Shown here: one piece after another, positions 6,873 through 42,367 of the stretch
How positions within the stretch are numbered: the stretch's first letter is position 1
Layout: each line of letters opens with the position of its first letter
The notes under the pieces: model-generated
Databases searched by the model: none
Told to the model about the DNA's origin: nothing
What the model saw: only the letters and a program-made list of their open reading frames with translations
Assembly (NCBI GenBank): GCA_004564215.1
Contig: CP024846.1
Coordinates: 1,426,001 to 1,490,000, forward strand
DNA: 64,000 bases
From: Beijerinckiaceae bacterium
Lineage (GTDB): Bacteria > Pseudomonadota > Alphaproteobacteria > Rhizobiales > Beijerinckiaceae
Reading direction: 5' to 3'
Made by a program: the position numbers and the translations under genes

Positions 6873-7139
6873 ATGGCTCAACATTTGTATGCAATCGGCC
6901 AGCACGTGAATTTCGATGGACAGATCGGGTCACAGATGAAACCGGCCGGTACTTTCATTGTCACCAAGCTTCTGCCGCCGCTCGGCGTCGAATTTCAGTA
7001 CCGAATCAAAAGCGAACGCGAGGCCTACGAGCGCGTGGCGATCGAACCGCAGCTGCGGGCCCTGAAACCGAAGGACCCCGCAGACAATCAATTGCCGCGC
7101 AATGCCTCCGAAGCGGAGCGCGTTTTCGCCGGCGCCTGA
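6873..7139 (+). CDS. Conserved hypothetical small protein
   Basis: An 88-residue protein starting MAQHLYAIGQHVNF. I prefer the ATG at 6873 because the open frame upstream is low-quality, Cys-rich and non-conserved-looking. The protein has a beta-strand-rich first half (GQHVNFDGQIGSQMKPAGTFIVTKLLP) and a charged second half (YRIKSEREAYERVAIEPQLRAL), reminiscent of small SH3-like or KOW-like proteins common in Rhizobiales. No signal peptide or membrane segment. It is convergent with the oxalate decarboxylase gene 42 bp downstream. Function unknown. Confidence 0.6.
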   Translation: MAQHLYAIGQHVNFDGQIGSQMKPAGTFIVTKLLPPLGVEFQYRIKSEREAYERVAIEPQLRALKPKDPADNQLPRNASEAERVFAGA

Positions 7140-32189: not shown

Positions 32190-32975
32190 TCATTCCTTGA
32201 AGGCACGCGACAAATTGCTTGCCCCGGCAAAGGCCTTCTCCTGAGCGGCGTCGATGCGCGCCGAGGACAGGTCAAGATCGTCGACATTCGTATGAGCGAG
32301 GATCGCGCCGCGAAAATCGGCACCCCCCGCCTCGGCGCCGGCAAGAGACGCCCCCGCAAAATTCACGCCGGACATATTCGAAAACTGCAGATCGGCGCGC
32401 CCGAGTTTCGCATTTTCAAAATCCGCACCGCGGAGATCCGCCGATTTCATGACCGTTCGCATAAGCCCCATAGATTGGTTCTTCATGTCGGCGGCGAGAT
32501 TGGCGTCCTTGAACTTGGCGTTGCGCAAACTGGCACGCGACAGATCGGCGGCGATGCGGGCGGCCGAAAGATCTGCGCCGTCGAATTTGGCCTCCTGCAT
32601 TTGGCTCGCAAAGAGATTGGCACCGCGAAGGCTTGCGCCCGAAAAATCGGCTGCAACAGCCCAGGCCTGATCGAACACCGCGCCGTCAAGCTTAGTCTTC
32701 GACAGATTGGCCTTGTTCAACCGCGCGGCGCGGAAATTGGCGTTGGAGAAATCAAGCCCGGACAGATCCAGCCCATTGAGACTCTTGCCGGAGAAGTCGG
32801 CGCCCGCCGGCGCGGCCCTCAGGCTTGCCTCGACCTCGACCCTGGTCATCTCGGCGGAGGAAAAACGGGGGCTGGAAAGATCGACATGACGCATCATGTC
32901 CTGTGCCTGCGTGGCCGCCGTCGCAAGCCAAGCCGAGGCCGCAACGCGGACGATCCATTGAAGGCCGTTTTCCAC
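32190..32975 (-). CDS. Exported pentapeptide-repeat protein
   Basis: A 261-residue protein with a signal-like N-terminus (VRVAASAWLATAATQAQ). From about residue 55 there are continuous A(D/N)LxX-type pentapeptides: ADFSG, LDLSG, LDFSN, ANFRA, ARLNK, ANLSK, TKLDG and so on, interrupted near residue 170 by an MKNQSMGLMRTVMK segment and continuing to about 240. Such repeats fold as a right-handed quadrilateral beta-helix. Cytoplasmic relatives (Qnr/MfpA) mimic DNA; an exported one cannot protect gyrase, so its role is probably structural or in binding. It is divergent from aspA. Confidence 0.8.
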   Translation of the reverse strand: MENGLQWIVRVAASAWLATAATQAQDMMRHVDLSSPRFSSAEMTRVEVEASLRAAPAGADFSGKSLNGLDLSGLDFSNANFRAARLNKANLSKTKLDGAVFDQAWAVAADFSGASLRGANLFASQMQEAKFDGADLSAARIAADLSRASLRNAKFKDANLAADMKNQSMGLMRTVMKSADLRGADFENAKLGRADLQFSNMSGVNFAGASLAGAEAGGADFRGAILAHTNVDDLDLSSARIDAAQEKAFAGASNLSRAFKE

Positions 32976-33208
32976 TTGTGATGCTCCCTGCCGAGTTCAT
33001 TCACTGAATTTTATTTTCTTGGGACAAGGATCGATCCACCAATTGGGCGGCTCAATTCCCGCGCAGTGACTATATAAGACTATCCGCGCCGCAACTGCCA
33101 TGGGTTACCTTGAGCGCCACCCCAATCAGCGGCACCGTCTCGATCGGTTCGGCCATGACCAGAGAAGCCCTCGAAATGCACCGTCGAACGTCAGGCCGGG
33201 AATTGCCG

Positions 33209-34714
33209 ATGAAAGACAGTTCCCTTCCAGACATCCACGCCACCCTCCAGCTTGCCGCCCCCCGCGCATTGGAGCTCGCCGCCGTCGCGACGAGGCGCGA
33301 GCATGACCTCCTCGGCGAGGCGGATGTTCCAGCCGATGCCTATTGGGGCATCCACACCCTGCGTGCGGTGGAGAATTTCCCGATCACCGGCATTCCGATC
33401 GGACATTTCCCCGAACTTGTACGCGCTTTGGCGCTGGTCAAGCAGGCGGCGGCGCGTGCCAACCGGCGCCTTAAACAGCTTCCGGCCGAGAAGGCGGATG
33501 CGATCGACCGAGCCTGCGATCTCATCGCCAAAGACCGGATCTATCTCGATCAATTCGTGGTCGATGCGGTGCAAGGCGGCGCCGGGACTTCGACCAACAT
33601 GAACGCCAATGAGGTCGTGGCCAATGTCGCGCTGGAGCTAATGGGACGCCGGCGCGGCGAGTATCACATTTTGCACCCGATCGACGACGTCAATATGGCG
33701 CAATCGACGAACGACGCCTATCCGACGGCGCTTCGGCTTTCCTTGATCTTCGCAACCGAGCCCCTCGTTCAGGCGATGAAAGAACTCGCCTACGCCTTCA
33801 AAGCCAAAGCGGTTGAATTCGCGGATGTGCTGAAGATCGGCCGCACCCAAATGCAGGATGCAGTGCCGATGACGCTCGGGCAGGAATTCGATGCGTTTCA
33901 CACGACCGTGAAGGAAGACATCGACCGCCTGCGGGAAGCCGTGGCGCTGTTTCGCGAGGTGAATCTCGGCGCGACGGCGATCGGCACCGGCATCACATCC
34001 GATGCCCGCTACGCTTCGCTTGCGGTGGAAGAATTGGCGCGCGCCTCTGGCGAGCCGATGGTGCTTGCCGCCAATTTGATCGAGGCAACCTCGGACATGG
34101 GCGCCTTTGTCCTGTTCTCCGGCGTGCTCAAGCGCGTAGCCGTGAAGCTTTCGAAGATTTGCAACGATCTGCGCCTGCTTTCCTCCGGCCCTCGGGCGGG
34201 TTTTGGGGAGATCCGTCTGCCGCCCGTTCAAGCCGGTTCTTCGATCATGCCCGGCAAGGTGAATCCGGTGATTCCGGAGGTCGTGAGTCAGGTTGCTTAT
34301 CTCGTCGTCGGCAATGATCTGACAGTCACGATGTGCGCCGAAGCGGGCCAACTTCAGCTCAATGCATTCGAGCCGACAATCGGCTATGCAATCCTCACCT
34401 CACTTCGTATGCTGACCGCCGCGATCGATACTTTGACCAAGCGCTGCATCAACGGCATTGAGGCCGATCGCGAACGCTGCCTCGACCTCGTCGAAAACAG
34501 CATCGGTCTCGTGACCGCGCTTGGGCCCGTGCTTGGCCACGAAACCTGCTCGCGCATCGCCCGTCGCGCCTTGGATGAAAAACGTAAGGTTTCGGAAATC
34601 GTGCTCGAAGAAGGCTTGTTGACAGAGGCAAGGCTCAACGAATTGCTTTTGCTCGAAGCGATGACACGGCCGTCACGAATCGCGATGACGGCCTCGGTGA
34701 AACCGAAGAGTTAG
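33209..34714 (+). CDS. aspA: Aspartate ammonia-lyase
   Basis: A fumarase/aspartase superfamily enzyme of about 501 residues. The aspartase N-terminal core TRREHDLLGEADVPADAYWG is present, with GAGTSTNMNANEVVANVA, TNDAYPTALR and the flexible SS-loop GSSIMPGKVNPVIPE bearing the catalytic Ser. It deaminates L-aspartate to fumarate and ammonia. Start choice is uncertain: I prefer the ATG at 33209 (GGGAA 6 nt upstream); ATGs at 33155 and 33176 and a TTG at 33110 are also in frame. It is convergent with the exported methyltransferase gene, with 12 bp between them. Confidence 0.93.
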   Translation: MKDSSLPDIHATLQLAAPRALELAAVATRREHDLLGEADVPADAYWGIHTLRAVENFPITGIPIGHFPELVRALALVKQAAARANRRLKQLPAEKADAIDRACDLIAKDRIYLDQFVVDAVQGGAGTSTNMNANEVVANVALELMGRRRGEYHILHPIDDVNMAQSTNDAYPTALRLSLIFATEPLVQAMKELAYAFKAKAVEFADVLKIGRTQMQDAVPMTLGQEFDAFHTTVKEDIDRLREAVALFREVNLGATAIGTGITSDARYASLAVEELARASGEPMVLAANLIEATSDMGAFVLFSGVLKRVAVKLSKICNDLRLLSSGPRAGFGEIRLPPVQAGSSIMPGKVNPVIPEVVSQVAYLVVGNDLTVTMCAEAGQLQLNAFEPTIGYAILTSLRMLTAAIDTLTKRCINGIEADRERCLDLVENSIGLVTALGPVLGHETCSRIARRALDEKRKVSEIVLEEGLLTEARLNELLLLEAMTRPSRIAMTASVKPKS

Positions 34715-34726
34715 AAGCCGGCCCTT

Positions 34727-35566
34727 TTACTTCGCATCCAGGGGCTTTTGAAATTTCAGCACAAAGCGGTCGCTTTCGCCGATCGCAGAATATTTTTCTC
34801 TGTCCTGGTCTTTCAGCTGGTAGGTGGGCGGCAGGGTCCAAACGCCTTCCGGATAATCCTTTGTGTCTTTCGGATTGGCATTGACTTCGGATTCGCCGAC
34901 CAATTTGAAACCGGCTTTCTCCGCCAGTGCGATCGCATAATCCTGCCGGACATAGCCGCTTTTGGCCTGCGGGTCCTGCGCCTGATCGGGGCGGCCCCGA
35001 TGTTCCTCAACACCCAAAATCCCACCTGGCTTCAGCGCCTTGTAAAACGACCGGAAAGCTGCGTCCGCGGTTCCGGCGCGCATCCAATTATGGATATTGC
35101 GGAACGTCAAAACGAAATCGGCGCTGCCGGGAGGCGCTATATCCTCGCCGCCTCCGGTAAAGGCGGTGGTGACGGTTTTGCCATAGAGTTCGGGATGGGC
35201 GGCGATGTTCGCTTGGATCGGCGCAATGTCCCGGCCGGCATCGCCGGCGGCGGTGTAGCGGCCGTGGTCCTTGAGGTAGGGCGCCAAAATCTCGGTCCAA
35301 TAGCCGGCCTTCCCTGGCGTGACTTCGACCACATCGGCATCTGCTTTCACCCCGAAAAAGGTGAGAACCTCCAACGGATGCCGATAGGGATCGCGAGCCT
35401 TGTTGGCATCGCTTCTCTGCGGGCCGTTGACGAGCGCGACAAGGGCCGGGTCAGCGCCCTGTTCCGCGCTCGCATACGGGATCTGGGCGAGGCCGACAGC
35501 AAAGCAGATCGCGGCAAGCGGCCCCGACATTTTGCTCCATGAAACTCCCATCCTTTTGGCAAACAT
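34727..35566 (-). CDS. Exported methyltransferase-fold protein (COG4798-like)
   Basis: A 279-residue protein. AAGGAGG lies 5 nt before the ATG at 35566. Residues 1-34 look like a signal peptide (SGPLAAICFAVGLAQIPYASAEQ). The rest is a class I methyltransferase fold with motif I at 79-90 (VVEVTPGKAGYW), then TEILAPYL, SADFVLTFRNIHNW and ALKPGGILGVEEHR. This resembles the COG4798 'predicted methyltransferase' group. Export is odd because S-adenosylmethionine is cytoplasmic. It is the last gene of the receptor operon, 42 bp after the thioredoxin gene. Whether it binds SAM, a metal or another small molecule is unknown. Confidence 0.75.
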   Translation of the reverse strand: MFAKRMGVSWSKMSGPLAAICFAVGLAQIPYASAEQGADPALVALVNGPQRSDANKARDPYRHPLEVLTFFGVKADADVVEVTPGKAGYWTEILAPYLKDHGRYTAAGDAGRDIAPIQANIAAHPELYGKTVTTAFTGGGEDIAPPGSADFVLTFRNIHNWMRAGTADAAFRSFYKALKPGGILGVEEHRGRPDQAQDPQAKSGYVRQDYAIALAEKAGFKLVGESEVNANPKDTKDYPEGVWTLPPTYQLKDQDREKYSAIGESDRFVLKFQKPLDAK

Positions 35567-35608
35567 GCACGCCTCCTTATTGGTTCGTCTCGGCCTGTCA
35601 CGACGCGA

Positions 35609-36103
35609 TTATTTAGGAGGCCGGCGTTCCCCATCGAGCCACGCCGAAACCTCCTCCACATTGGCCGCGCCCTCGATCTTGCGCATCGCGCCATTGCTCC
35701 CGATCAGAAAGGTAAAAGGAATCTCGCCTTGCCATTTAGGGTCGATTTCGTAGCGCAATCGCTCGACAAAACCATCGTCGAAAATCCAGTTCTCGGCATT
35801 TGAAAGGCCGGATTTCGCAAGGAATGCCTGCGTCGCGTCTGGGGAGTCGGGCACCAGATCCGCGCTCACGGTGACAAGCGGCAAATCCGGTCGCTCAGCC
35901 AGCAGCTTTCCCCACGCGAGCATTTCCGAACGGCAGGGTCCGCAGGTCATTCCCCAGAAATGCACGATCACCGGCCGTCCGGAATGGGCTTGAATCAAGG
36001 CCCGCCAGCTGCCGCGAACAAACGGATTGAGCTCTGCCGCATTGCCAAGGCTGACCGACAGGCACAGAGCGGCGAGAAGAGTTGCAAAAGACTGCGGTCT
36101 CAC
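35609..36103 (-). CDS. Exported TlpA/ResA-like thioredoxin-fold protein (CGPC)
   Basis: A 164-residue protein. It starts with the GTG at 36103, which overlaps the stop of the upstream gene as GTGA, so translation is coupled; longer readings go into that gene. Residues 1-25 are a signal peptide (MRPQSFATLLAALCLSVSLGNA). The active site is WGMTCGPCRSEM, followed by the cis-Pro region GEIPFTFLIG. TlpA/ResA-type proteins reduce disulfides or Cu-binding cysteines in the periplasm, often for cytochrome or oxidase assembly. With a TonB receptor and DUF2946 in the operon, a role in handling copper-ligand thiols is plausible. Confidence 0.88.
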   Translation of the reverse strand: MRPQSFATLLAALCLSVSLGNAAELNPFVRGSWRALIQAHSGRPVIVHFWGMTCGPCRSEMLAWGKLLAERPDLPLVTVSADLVPDSPDATQAFLAKSGLSNAENWIFDDGFVERLRYEIDPKWQGEIPFTFLIGSNGAMRKIEGAANVEEVSAWLDGERRPPK

Positions 36104-37317
36104 GAGGCTTCCTCGAGTATGAGAAGACGGTAGCCTTCCTTCTGGGTTTGCCAAGAGAGGAAAGCATGGCGGCCATCGCTGACGAGCACGGGATGGTCCG
36201 ACTCCTCGGTCGTCACGGCGACCGCCCTCAGGCTGCTCCAATGTTTACCGTTATCCTGCGAGACCATGGTCATGACATTGGTGTGATCGCCGTCGAATTG
36301 CTTCCAAGCCAGCCAAACCTTGCCATTGAAGCCAAGAAGATCCGGTCTTCCCGGCGCTTGATCCGGCAGGCCAACCGGCATGGGTTCGGAAAAGCTGCGC
36401 CCGCCATCCGTCGATCTTGCATAAAATAGGCCCTTGCGCACACGACCATTGGTAAACCACGCAACATGATAAGCACCGTCGCTGGCGACCGCGAGGCTCG
36501 GACCATGGTGTGGGCAGGCATCGATGGCCCAATCATCGTCGCTGACGCGATAGACCGGACCTGGCTTGCTCGGACCATCAAATGTCAAAATCGCGTGATC
36601 CCGCACGCTTGTGTTGAAAAGATTGCGAAAGAGGACGACGGGACGCCGTGGGCCGGCAAAGCCGATGGCGATGCGACAGCATTCGCAGGTATTGTCATGG
36701 GCGATCGCTGCGTCCGAGAAGGTCGTTGCGTGATCGCCGGACCAGGCAAAGGCAAGCCCCGCCCCTTCATAGGGTTCGCCCTTCTCCTTGGCCGCGGCGC
36801 GGTTGCGCTTGTCGACCCAGGCCGAAAAAATCGACCCGTCGGAATCCAAACCCATCGCGATGAAACGCTGACTCGCCTGGTCCGCCGTGATCGGCTGCGC
36901 CGCCGCGAATGTCTTGCCGCCGTCGACCGAGCGCGTGAAGAACAATTGGCCGTTGTATTTATCGTCGCGGAAAGTCGCGTAAGCGACAATCACGCGGCCT
37001 TTGCGATCGACGATGATTTTGGGTCTCGACTCCGGACCCCCGTCGAGTGCGACGGGGTCCGGAGTGATGACGACGGGCGCGGTGAAGGAGCGGCCATGAT
37101 CGGACGATTTCGCCACGAAGATTCGATTTCCGACCCGTGCGGCAACCCATAAGGCGCCATCCGGGGCAAAGGTCGGCGTTACGACGGCCGCACAGGCAAG
37201 CGACAGGTCGGAACAGGTTTCTCGTCCCTTGTGCTCGTGCGACATTTCCGCGACGACCGAACCGGAAGCGGCAAGAACCACCAAAGCAATAATAAGTGCA
37301 GGCCAGCGATTCAACAT
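36100..37317 (-). CDS. Exported Asp-box (BNR/sialidase-fold) propeller with CECC motif
   Basis: A 405-residue protein. The ATG at 37317 has GGAGGAG upstream. A signal peptide covers residues 1-23. At least four Asp-box repeats are visible: SSDHGRSF, SVDGGKTF, STDGGRSF and SQDNGKHW, giving a six-bladed sialidase-like propeller. It lacks an obvious sialidase arginine triad or FRIP motif, so glycosidase activity is doubtful. Residues 211-214 are CECC (in HDNTCECCRIAIGF), with HEHKGRETC near the N-terminus and CPHHGP further on; these could bind metal. It lies between the TonB receptor gene and the thioredoxin gene, overlapping the latter. Confidence 0.8.
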   Translation of the reverse strand: MLNRWPALIIALVVLAASGSVVAEMSHEHKGRETCSDLSLACAAVVTPTFAPDGALWVAARVGNRIFVAKSSDHGRSFTAPVVITPDPVALDGGPESRPKIIVDRKGRVIVAYATFRDDKYNGQLFFTRSVDGGKTFAAAQPITADQASQRFIAMGLDSDGSIFSAWVDKRNRAAAKEKGEPYEGAGLAFAWSGDHATTFSDAAIAHDNTCECCRIAIGFAGPRRPVVLFRNLFNTSVRDHAILTFDGPSKPGPVYRVSDDDWAIDACPHHGPSLAVASDGAYHVAWFTNGRVRKGLFYARSTDGGRSFSEPMPVGLPDQAPGRPDLLGFNGKVWLAWKQFDGDHTNVMTMVSQDNGKHWSSLRAVAVTTEESDHPVLVSDGRHAFLSWQTQKEGYRLLILEEAS

Positions 37318-37367
37318 TGAACTCTCCTCCACCCGATCTCTCGGGCCACGCACCGGGGAAGCTCTCG

Positions 37368-39698
37368 TCAGAACTTCACTCTAATACCCCCGACGAAGAC
37401 ACGCGGAAAGCCCGCATAGATCGTGCCGCTATTGGCACCGCCATTTGCCGCCAGCACCGTGGCCGGGTTCTGAAATCCGGTGACCGCGCTGATCGAGTTG
37501 GTGACATTGTTCGCGGACGCAATGTAGGTGTTGTTGAAGACGTTGCGAACCTCGAAATAGGCGCCGATCTTCTGAATGAAGGAGTTTTGAATGTCGGCGT
37601 CATAATGAAGGTTCAAATTGACGATCCGGTAGCCCGGGATCTTCAACAGATTGCCGTTGTCCGCATAGAAAGAGTCGGTCAAATAATATTCGGCATAGGC
37701 TCCAAGGCCTTTCGCCGGGCCGGTCGGCACATCATAGCCGAGCCGAGCGGTGAACTCGTTCGGAGCGACCCCCGGAAGCCAATGACCGGCCCGGTCGAAA
37801 ACCGAGGTCTTTTTCCCCGCGCTGAGCTGCTCCGAATATTGGGTGTAAATCTGGTTATCGTAGGTGTAGGCGAGCCTCGCCTTCCATCCTGGGTAAAACC
37901 GCCATTCGCCCGCGACTTCGACGCCGCGATGCTCCGAGCGCGGGGCATTGAACGTATATGTCAGCAGCGGCGACGGGCCAGGCGATTGCGAGATCAATTC
38001 GTTGCGGAAGAATTCGTAGAACCCTGTTACGCTCAGTCTTACGGTATCCAGCGGTGTCCAGACGGCAGAAAGATCATAGCCGAGGTTGGTTTGGGATTTC
38101 AGCTGCGTGTTATTCCCCGCCACGCCCGTTGGGGTGACGAAGAGGTTGCTGGCTTGCGGTGTTCCATAGCCGGTCGCGACTCTCGCCTTGATCAGCCAAT
38201 CGCTGTCGGGGCGAAAGACCAGCGCGCCTTCGGGAGCGATGTTGTAATAGTCATTGTTTGCCGAAGTTAAGCTGCTAGTCGGAATACCCTTCGGGTAGCT
38301 AAATGCGTTCAGGGTTCCGTTCACATTCGTATATTCGGCCCCTAAACCAGCGACCCCGGTCAAAAATTCATTGAACCGGATTTCTTCGCGCCCATGCAGC
38401 CCCATGTTGGTTTGCTGGGAGGGGACGATCTGAGTCACCCCTGCGAGCGGCGCATTGGACCCCGGACGGAGATTGTATGTATAGCCGGTCGTTCTCTCGG
38501 TGTTGAAATAGACCCCACCAAAATGCACGGCTTCCAAGCCAAAGACGGTCCCTCGGCTGGTGATGTCGGACATGAAGTTGATGGCTGGCTCATCGCCAAG
38601 GGAGCTGGTGGCGCCCGTCGGCTGATTGTAGTTCTTGTCGTCGAGGACAACTTGGGTTCGCCAGATGGAGTTATTGTCGAGATTATGCTCCCAGCGTAGG
38701 CCCAGGATCGACCGTGTGTCGTTGCGGTGGAACCCAGCCTGATAGGCGGTCTCAGGAACCGTGGCGCCAAAGAAGCCGTTTTTCAGGATGTTATTGGTTC
38801 CGCAGCCGGCCGCCTTTGCCGCCGTTGTGCTGGCGAAGACATAGCAGTTTCGTTGATAGGGATTTTGGTAGAACTGGTTGAGGTTGAGACGAACCGACAG
38901 ATCGCCGTAGAGCCGGTTGCTGATCAGTTTAAGCGTGATCTTGTCATCCGGGGTCGGGGAATAAGAGCCAAGAAAATTGATCGTCTGGGTGTTGAACAAA
39001 TTGTGATTGGTCGGTCCATTGCCGATCACATTGCTGGTAAACAGCGACACGTCGAAATTGCCGCTCTTGAGACCGTAAGCGAGGTAATTGTTGAGATAGC
39101 CGAAGCTGCCCGCGTCGGTTCCGACCTCGATGCCGTTCACCTCCGCACCCGTTCGCATCCGAAAATTGAGGGCGCCGCCGGTCGCGTAATTTCCGTACAG
39201 CGCCGAGGACGGCCCGCGGATGACGTCGATCGCGCCATAGGCATGGGGATCGGTCAGGTCCGTCCGCGAGAGCCCGTCCGGTTGCGTCACCGGAAATCCA
39301 TCCTCGAAAATTACGACGTTGCGAATGCCGAAGCCGACTTGCGCATTCGAGCCCCTTATCGAGATCCCGACGTCGCGCGGCCCATTGCCTTGCTTCAAAG
39401 AAACACCGGGGCTGTCCCGCAAGACGTCAAAGACGGAGAAGGCCTGCGTATTGATCATCCGGTCCGCGGGGATCGTGGTCTCGACCTGTCCCAGAGGCGT
39501 TTGATAGAGAGACTCCGGGGTCGTGTTCAGATCTCCTTCCGGGCCGATTGCCAAGCCGGTCGCGGTGACCTCGACGGCCGGGAGCTGCGCCGATTCGGCA
39601 GCTTGCTGGGCCTGAACCCCGAGCGGCCAGAGGGATGTGGTAACCATGAGAAAGGCAAGCGGGTGCGCACGCCGGCGCGTCGAGAAATTGGAGCGCAT
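37368..39698 (-). CDS. TonB-dependent outer-membrane receptor
   Basis: A 776-residue protein with a signal peptide (PLAFLMVTTSLWPLGVQAQQ) and a TonB-box-like stretch (PAVEVTATGL). The plug domain has DVLRDSPGVSLKQGNG, ISIRGSNAQ, VVIFEDGFPVTQPDG and IDVIRGPSSALYGNYATGGALNF. A 22-strand beta-barrel ends in the terminal Phe (GGIRVKF). It imports an unknown ligand with energy from TonB/ExbBD; a tonB gene lies just upstream on the same strand. The neighbouring DUF2946, Asp-box and CGPC proteins suggest copper or a copper chelate, but iron-siderophore receptors are similar in sequence. Confidence 0.92.
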   Translation of the reverse strand: MRSNFSTRRRAHPLAFLMVTTSLWPLGVQAQQAAESAQLPAVEVTATGLAIGPEGDLNTTPESLYQTPLGQVETTIPADRMINTQAFSVFDVLRDSPGVSLKQGNGPRDVGISIRGSNAQVGFGIRNVVIFEDGFPVTQPDGLSRTDLTDPHAYGAIDVIRGPSSALYGNYATGGALNFRMRTGAEVNGIEVGTDAGSFGYLNNYLAYGLKSGNFDVSLFTSNVIGNGPTNHNLFNTQTINFLGSYSPTPDDKITLKLISNRLYGDLSVRLNLNQFYQNPYQRNCYVFASTTAAKAAGCGTNNILKNGFFGATVPETAYQAGFHRNDTRSILGLRWEHNLDNNSIWRTQVVLDDKNYNQPTGATSSLGDEPAINFMSDITSRGTVFGLEAVHFGGVYFNTERTTGYTYNLRPGSNAPLAGVTQIVPSQQTNMGLHGREEIRFNEFLTGVAGLGAEYTNVNGTLNAFSYPKGIPTSSLTSANNDYYNIAPEGALVFRPDSDWLIKARVATGYGTPQASNLFVTPTGVAGNNTQLKSQTNLGYDLSAVWTPLDTVRLSVTGFYEFFRNELISQSPGPSPLLTYTFNAPRSEHRGVEVAGEWRFYPGWKARLAYTYDNQIYTQYSEQLSAGKKTSVFDRAGHWLPGVAPNEFTARLGYDVPTGPAKGLGAYAEYYLTDSFYADNGNLLKIPGYRIVNLNLHYDADIQNSFIQKIGAYFEVRNVFNNTYIASANNVTNSISAVTGFQNPATVLAANGGANSGTIYAGFPRVFVGGIRVKF

Positions 39699-39772
39699 TT
39701 GAGTGATCTCAGCTGAACGAGGGAAAACTGCATGCGTCGGGGGTGCCGACCATGCGGAGTTGAGAGTGGGCT

Positions 39773-40144
39773 TCAGCTGAAGAGGGGTGGCCCGCGCGGT
39801 GGCCGATGCTGGTCGGCGCCGAACACAACATGTTGAACGCTAGGTGCCCGCCAGCGGATGAATTGCGGTTCGGCATTAAGCGTGGCGGCGGTAAACGCCC
39901 GGCCGTCCGGCGGAAGCCAACCGCCCACGACGATTTGGCAGAGCTGGCAATGGTCATGGTGAGGGAGACTGGGGCCGGGGTCCGAGGGGTCGGTAACGGT
40001 CCCAACGTCGGTGGAGCAGATCGGAAGATGGTCGAATGGATCGACGGCATGCGTCACCATTCTCGAAGCTGCGACCGGCACCAAGGCCTGAGTCAGCAGC
40101 GCGAGACCAACTAAAAATGCTCCGAGAAATCTACGCCCCATCAT
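39773..40144 (-). CDS. DUF2946 family protein (metal-linked, His/Cys-rich)
   Basis: A 123-residue protein starting at the ATG at 40144 (a second ATG follows directly). The N-terminus is a signal/anchor (RFLGAFLVGLALLTQALVPVAA). The core has HLPICSTD and PHHDHCQLCQIVVGG, matching the Cys/His pattern of DUF2946. DUF2946 genes commonly sit beside TonB-dependent copper receptors and PCuAC-type proteins (recalled knowledge, not checked). It is the first gene of the receptor operon, with two palindromes upstream. It may present metal to, or take it from, the receptor pathway. Confidence 0.75.
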   Translation of the reverse strand: MMGRRFLGAFLVGLALLTQALVPVAASRMVTHAVDPFDHLPICSTDVGTVTDPSDPGPSLPHHDHCQLCQIVVGGWLPPDGRAFTAATLNAEPQFIRWRAPSVQHVVFGADQHRPPRGPPLFS

Positions 40145-40238: not shown

Positions 40239-40260
40239 ATCGTGACATCAATGTCACGAT
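40239..40260. promoter_or_regulatory. Perfect 22-bp operator-like palindrome upstream of the receptor operon
   Basis: ATCGTGACAT (40239-40248), spacer CA, then ATGTCACGAT (40251-40260): a perfect 10-bp dyad, 95-116 bp upstream of the DUF2946 start and 74 bp after the tonB stop. No T-run follows on either strand, so a terminator is less likely than a protein-binding site. Confidence 0.6.
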
Positions 40261-41677: not shown

Positions 41678-42367
41678 ATGCAGACCCTTGCCCGTGTTCC
41701 ATTCTTTAAAGACGTCGCCGACCTCGATTTCGAACGGTTCGACCGGCGCTGCAATTGGCGGCGATACAATGAAGGGGAAACCGTCGTCGATTACGAAGAC
41801 GAATCCTCGGATGTTTATTTTATCATTTCCGGCGAAGTCAGGATTCTGATTCGGACCCTCGCCGGCAAGGAGATCATTCTAGGCGAGACCAAAGCTGGCC
41901 AATTTTTTGGGGAGATGGCGGCGATCGACGGTGCGAAACGCTCGGCCAATGTGACCGCCCTGACCAATTCCGAACTCTGCATTATGCCGACCACCGTCTT
42001 TCGTGAAGTGATTTTCGCTTCGCCCACGACATGCGAACGCATTCTGCGGCTGCTGACCGGACGTGTGCGCGAGCTCAATGCGCGGCTGGCGGAACATTCG
42101 ATCTTCGATCTCAAGCACCGGCTCTATTCGGAGCTTTTGCGGATGGCTCATCCGCGTCCTGGCCGCCCGGACGAACGGGCGGTGACTCCTCCACCCTTCC
42201 ACCATGTGCTGGCCGCGCGAATCGGCTGCCGGCGTGAACAGGTGACGCGCGAACTTTCCGCAATGAGCGAAGAAGGCCTGGTGGAAAAAACCCGCGGCGC
42301 GCTCATTTTGTTGCGACCACAGGTCCTGGAGGCTCGCCTCAACGAGGCCATGCGAGAGGGCGGCTGA
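41678..42367 (+). CDS. Crp/Fnr family transcriptional regulator
   Basis: A 229-residue protein with an N-terminal cyclic-nucleotide-binding-like domain (about 5-125; DVYFIISGEVRILIRT, GEMAAIDGAKRSANVTAL) and a C-terminal winged helix with the recognition segment VLAARIGCRREQVTRELSAM. The four FNR iron-sulfur cysteines are absent, so oxygen sensing by a cluster is unlikely; the domain may bind cAMP or another ligand. It is divergent from tonB, and therefore a candidate regulator of tonB and the receptor operon, although this is only positional inference. Confidence 0.88.
   Translation: MQTLARVPFFKDVADLDFERFDRRCNWRRYNEGETVVDYEDESSDVYFIISGEVRILIRTLAGKEIILGETKAGQFFGEMAAIDGAKRSANVTALTNSELCIMPTTVFREVIFASPTTCERILRLLTGRVRELNARLAEHSIFDLKHRLYSELLRMAHPRPGRPDERAVTPPPFHHVLAARIGCRREQVTRELSAMSEEGLVEKTRGALILLRPQVLEARLNEAMREGG

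Follow-up and report, generated by a model that had tools for sequence, protein, structure and literature searches.

A recurrent cassette of leader peptide, TonB-dependent receptor, propeller and thioredoxin genes, probably for copper uptake, beside an unrelated methyltransferase-fold gene

Do five closely spaced genes on one strand of a Beijerinckiaceae genome form a single metal-uptake pathway, and which of them belong to it? Within the 64,000-nucleotide stretch of DNA that we analyzed (the window), the minus strand encodes, in order, a DUF2946 protein (40144–39773; 123 aa; PF11162 at 34.4 bits, cut-off 23.7), a TonB-dependent receptor (TBDR; 39698–37368; 776 aa; Plug and barrel over the Pfam cut-off), an exported Asp-box/BNR beta-propeller (ASP; 37317–36100; 405 aa; PF13088, BNR_2, at 43.7 bits, cut-off 31.4), an exported thioredoxin-like protein with a CGPC motif (TRX; 36103–35609; 164 aa; every Pfam match under its cut-off) and an exported methyltransferase-fold protein (MT; 35566–34727; 279 aa; only Methyltransf_12, E 4.7e-4, 21.3 bits, cut-off 30), the signal peptides of the window proteins having been assigned by eye. 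The gaps between these genes are exactly 74, 50, −4 and 42 bp, as the original prediction had it, and its gene coordinates are likewise confirmed. Upstream, and likewise on the minus strand, lies a tonB gene (41485–40334); on the plus strand, a lyase gene (33110–34714) is convergent with MT. A CRP/FNR-type regulator gene (41678–42367) lies divergent from tonB. We read the locus, with a probability of about 0.7, as a four-gene uptake cassette for copper starvation, TonB-dependent and repressed by copper, with an unrelated fifth gene behind it.

The host genome is a single contig of 3.33 Mb. Its organism is probably a methane oxidizer, since several of the closest MT relatives carry the source name Methylocella sp. 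and the genome encodes PmoB, as judged by a sequence match. PCuAC gives one match in this genome, far from the window. Beyond the window, PF11162 finds two further matches, one of them over the cut-off; this second over-cut-off DUF2946 gene (locus L116) stands ahead of an exported protein of VGNRFFP type and of CopC- and CopD-like genes (CopD-like called from a CopCD match, CopC from reading the sequence), a set that resembles the one upstream of the cassette in Bradyrhizobium loci L007 and L008. A third DUF2946-like frame (L117, 9125–9529), under the Pfam cut-off, has a CxxC-type motif and ends in RAPPPSV; no copper gene is evident behind it.

We compared the window with 31 other loci carrying a strong ASP match, counting a TBDR when it lay within 9 kb and TRX when it stood directly behind ASP. 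The loci came from searches that yielded 14, 4 (order), 10 (family) and 3 (class), and some possibly represent the same species twice; weak ASP matches, for instance those in G230, G338, G145, G080 and G342, were excluded from the counts. A TBDR was present at all 31 loci, TRX followed ASP at 27, and a DUF2946 gene with the strict CruR motif was found at 19, a pattern that misses the DUF2946 genes of L014, L015 and L113 (recognized by reading) and L110 (found by tblastn) and those of loci at contig ends. Three loci have ASP without an adjacent TRX, and at L015 the contig ends directly behind ASP, so that TRX could not show there. Neither MT nor the lyase gene occurs at any of the 31 loci. The control set of 20 MT loci contained no CruR motif, a TBDR match at two loci (L094, and a fragment in L100) and TRX at one (a fragment in L100). 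Given these two sets, DUF2946, TBDR, ASP and TRX form a recurrent cassette whose grouping exceeds chance.

The composition around this core varies. Four different panel receptors serve as best match for the receptors at the ASP loci, so ASP and TRX are not tied to one receptor type. ExbD lies within the ASP unit at seven loci (L105–L109, L111 and L112), and among the loci listed exbB and tonB are also present at L105, L106, L111 and L112. A second strict CruR motif heads a divergent receptor gene in five of the seven exbD-type loci, the other motif heading the exbBD/ASP unit. The arrangement of a divergent receptor gene facing the exbBD/ASP unit was seen at L105–L109 and L112. In the named Bradyrhizobium loci the order is DUF2946, TBDR, ASP, TRX and PCuAC, with CopCD further on in most. 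ASP itself is rare, with strong matches in 5 of 199 genomes of the order and 5 of 385 of the class. Of the 11 family genomes with a pmoB match, 8 also match ASP strongly, versus 3 of the 138 others (Fisher 5e-9, kinship uncorrected); the corresponding figure for the genus is only 2 of 10, the ten including G345 with a short partial match. A tight link between ASP and pMMO is weakened by this outcome, holding in the family and failing in the genus.

The distribution of MT is a different one. ASP is matched strongly (E 1e-92 or better) in 11 and MT (E 1e-66 or better) in 18 of the 149 family genomes; the only genome with both is the window's own, for a chance expectation of about 1.3. Within the genus (15 genomes), strong ASP is confined to the window's genome and G318, and strong MT to the window's genome, G344, G345 and G346. 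The four genes DUF2946-TBDR-ASP-TRX are present in G318 without MT, and in G346 tonB, MT and the lyase gene adjoin with no cassette gene between them. In G344, pieces of TRX and of the TBDR gene still separate MT from tonB, so the cassette has been lost at least there and MT kept (G344 and G346 are many-contig assemblies, of 580 and 310 contigs). Elsewhere the neighbors of MT vary. Because MT is absent from all 31 ASP loci and is kept without the cassette in G344 and G346, it is an adjacent gene and not a cassette member in the other genomes examined. We therefore dropped the five-gene unit and, with it, the original idea of a pathway that ends in an exported methyltransferase; co-occurrence in other genomes holds for the first four genes and fails for the fifth. 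In the window, MT may be co-transcribed with the cassette, and tonB may energize the receptor but belongs to the tonB-MT-lyase neighborhood. The TRX and TBDR fragments between MT and tonB at 7062–7448 of L100, from a genus-mate, are the remains of a cassette since lost. A similar exported pentapeptide-repeat-like gene occurs in three genomes of the genus close to the cassette or to where it used to be (window 32190–32975, L103 6425–7210, L100 3631–4413), in differing arrangements and with the similarity judged by eye.

Class I SAM-dependent methyltransferases have a glycine-rich motif I, E/DxGxGxG. MT shares their fold in its model and differs from them in that this motif is replaced by EVTPGKAGY, in its export (assigned by eye) and in having no solved relative by sequence or profile search. 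The altered form ExxPGxxG is matched by 107 of 120 MT relatives among those listed. The family is large, exported-looking and of methyltransferase fold, with at least 8000 relatives (8000 of 8000 scored candidates at E 0.001 or better), many of them named 'predicted methyltransferase' by their source; our literature search found no paper on COG4798, the label that the original prediction used for this protein.

What, then, controls the four-gene cassette? DUF2946 is, by gene order, the first gene of the putative operon, with the receptor gene next. The protein carries CxxC at residues 66–69 and RGPP at 117–120, with a spacing of 47 and three residues behind RGPP. In CruR, CxxC and RAPP are about 45 residues apart, give or take one or two, RAPP stands three residues before the end, and the mechanism combines a ribosome arrest that copper relieves with Rho termination (PMC9426467). 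The window protein thus has the sequence features that define CruR, with Gly replacing the Ala of RAPP, and its gene fits a copper-responsive leader peptide of this type. The gap to the TBDR is 74 bp versus 162 bp for CruR of Bordetella pertussis; long intergenic regions are described as general at cruR loci but not required (PMC9426467). C exceeds G, the bias looked for as a sign of Rho action, from about 40100 on, a stretch that is not specific because it continues beyond DUF2946 into the receptor gene. Upstream of DUF2946 stands a perfect 22-base palindrome (40239–40260), overlapped by a promoter-like site (40251–40223). As a shared operator the palindrome was rejected, being found only in the window when this was compared with 28 loci (26 from other genomes and 2 elsewhere in the host genome), and promoter-like sites around it occur at chance level.

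The DUF2946-type protein CutF acts via a stem that shields the start site of the next gene (PMC9973294). A comparable stem is predicted in the window, on the minus strand: its 5′ arm (39781–39772) runs across the final codons of DUF2946 and its stop codon, and its 3′ arm (39717–39708) lies in the ribosome-binding region just upstream of the TBDR start codon (39698). The RNA folds with a z of −3.7, none of 200 shuffles folding as well, and a shorter piece without the 5′ arm reaches a z of −1.1. Of 20 junctions (window included), 10 have a z of at most −2, with +0.22 for the genus-mate G318; in this set the start codons of L008, L012 and L114 were misplaced, which was corrected when the pairing of the arms was compared. 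In that comparison, the cognate pairing between frame end and start region beats the mismatched mean in 18 of 20 junctions (all but L007 and L131); in 10 of 20, no more than 15 of 300 shuffles pair as well, and in only 3 of 20 is it stronger than every mismatched pair. Given the kinship of the loci and a test that was chosen with the folds already in view, this pairing is suggestive only, and the related junctions support the stem only in part.

Operons of this general kind, in which copper represses a TonB-dependent receptor gene preceded by a DUF2946 leader peptide, are already published (PMC9426467, PMC12914433). The undescribed pathway that the original prediction thought possible is therefore in part a known one. 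The cruR-crtA(bfrG)-crpH(bp2921) operon of B. pertussis, which copper represses, likewise begins with a DUF2946 leader bearing CxxC and RxPP, followed by the receptor (PMC9426467, PMC12914433, PMC13038864), and CrtA imports copper chelates for respiratory oxidases (PMC12914433). Receptors of the CrtA type are marked by a sequence cluster that has an essential His in its binding site. The window differs from it in the shorter gap and in having no PepSY_TM gene behind the receptor, where more than 75% of CrtA-receptor loci carry one; the next genes here are ASP and TRX. The cutFOG operon of Rhodobacter capsulatus likewise has an exported leader peptide of DUF2946 type and a stem that hides the next start site, but there copper turns on cutO, and the genes act in detoxification, so that the opposite sign is expected for the window cassette (PMC9973294). 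The receptor resembles PqqU/YncD in its sequence more than any other receptor of solved structure; it lies far below the PqqU cut-off, and the gene context points to copper. The pcu operon of Bradyrhizobium reportedly comprises five genes, without ASP and TRX, and PCuAC, one of its products, is encoded elsewhere in the window's genome. It is an operon for copper starvation with a cruR homologue at its head, a receptor and PCuAC (PMC9426467, PMC12617631). PcuB, which belongs to this operon, has no phenotype of its own, and the aa3 oxidase of Caulobacter needs TccA (PMC12617631).

Which cargo the receptor takes up, and whether the exported proteins act on it, can be weighed from several sides. 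In one alternative, all five genes would form a metallophore pathway in which MT, as the last operon member, acts on the imported ligand in the periplasm, by modifying or by binding it. MT does follow TRX on its strand at a distance of 42 bp, and G344 retains the same order, with MT beside the TRX and TBDR remnants, so this neighborhood existed in a shared ancestor. We nevertheless consider this pathway very improbable, given that MT is near none of the 31 ASP loci, that strong ASP and MT coincide in 1 of 149 family genomes, and that MT is intact where the cassette is gone and has varied neighbors elsewhere. In another, the cassette would import a different metal or an organic cofactor, such as zinc or a PQQ-like molecule. 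Indeed, the TBDR has its nearest, if remote, match among the families and solved structures searched in PqqU (133 bits against the PqqU model, short of its equivalog cut-off of 1200, and the PqqU/YncD structures), none of its 12 solved-structure matches is named CrtA or BfrG, and TIGR01778, presumably the OprC model of NCBIfam, is not among its 20 NCBIfam matches at E 0.01. H338, H590, H698, C285 and C299 are common to the 13 receptors of its group (counting that of the window), with no invariant Met; invariant His in this receptor class can be structural. Furthermore, in Caulobacter a Zur-activated operon for zinc efflux begins with a DUF2946 gene, CC2720 (PMC4176598), and some CutF-like groups adjoin nickel/cobalt genes (PMC9973294), settings that count against copper as the only option. 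Against a non-copper cargo stand the CxxC and RxPP motifs at CruR spacing in DUF2946 and the genes near the related cassettes, PCuAC at 16 and CopCD at 7 of the 31 ASP loci, and we regard such a cargo as unlikely; the same observations support the original suggestion of copper.

A further alternative concerns the propeller, which could be a glycan-active or glycan-binding protein and not a copper acceptor, its cysteines forming disulfides handled by TRX, and the pair helping the receptor or an envelope partner to fold. The ASP model is a confident beta-propeller (mean pLDDT 88) whose best fold matches, at modest TM-scores, are sialidases, polysaccharide lyases and a lectin, and its sequence matches to sialidase are weak. 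Cysteines of exported proteins are, as a rule, often disulfide-bonded, and the sialidase (GH33) active site consists of an Arg triad, Tyr/Glu and Asp. What speaks against the glycan reading is the constant linkage of ASP to copper-type loci and a set of residues invariant over 57 aligned sequences, namely C211, C213 and C214 (the CECC at 211–214), C268, H270 and H284. H27, C35, C42 and H241 are conserved in 90% or more of these sequences, and the N-terminal motif is absent from some Reyranella and gammaproteobacterial relatives. We consider this reading of the propeller rather unlikely. TRX has its CxxC in the window and in all 21 relatives collected. Periplasmic thioredoxins reduce the cysteines of copper sites before metallation (PMC13038864), and AhpC_TSA genes near cruR homologues have been read as serving peroxide detoxification (PMC9426467). 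In our best reading, the propeller and the thioredoxin are a putative periplasmic copper-handling pair.

Under the preferred reading, that of a copper-starvation uptake cassette, we infer the roles of all cassette proteins from sequence and gene context, and they would connect as follows. When copper is scarce, the ribosome would stall at RGPP near the end of DUF2946, as the likeness to CruR, the motifs and the predicted stem suggest; it would then cover the 5′ arm of the stem that otherwise hides the ribosome-binding region of the TBDR, so that the receptor genes are expressed, and it may also keep Rho off. Copper bound by the CxxC of the nascent chain would relieve the stall, upon which the stem would close, Rho may terminate transcription and uptake would stop. 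The receptor, energized by TonB, would bring a copper complex into the periplasm, where the propeller could take over the copper via its Cys/His cluster, as its invariant Cys and His residues and the constant association of the genes suggest. The thioredoxin would keep reduced the cysteines of the propeller, or those of downstream targets, and the copper would presumably pass to chaperones of PCuAC type and to cuproenzymes. The fuller proposal, that ASP represents a new class of periplasmic acceptor of copper from the receptor-imported complex, with TRX as its dedicated reductase and the whole set switched by a leader peptide whose RxPP stall copper relieves through an anti-Shine-Dalgarno stem (CruR-type logic joined to a CutF-type RNA device), is put forward tentatively, as less likely than not.

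It is in the propeller and the thioredoxin that the claim of novelty may stand. No paper describing the pair appeared among the literature matches listed for sialidase or BNR repeat with copper or TonB. The words 'sialidase' and 'BNR' do not occur in the main texts of PMC9426467, PMC9973294 and PMC13038864, nor do 'BNR', 'propeller' and 'thioredoxin' in the main text of the CrtA paper (PMC12914433), these counts covering main text as distinct from figures and supplements. The pair may therefore be undescribed so far.

Our result also means that copper uptake is not a role to assign to the exported methyltransferase-like protein. With the predicted stem comes a mechanism, open to direct testing, by which a leader peptide that senses copper could switch its operon. 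Finally, only a small number of copper-importing outer-membrane receptors have been described, and still less is understood of what takes over the copper behind them; a pair of propeller and thioredoxin that accompanies several receptor types would be a candidate for this copper-receiving step in methane oxidizers, Bradyrhizobium and their relatives.
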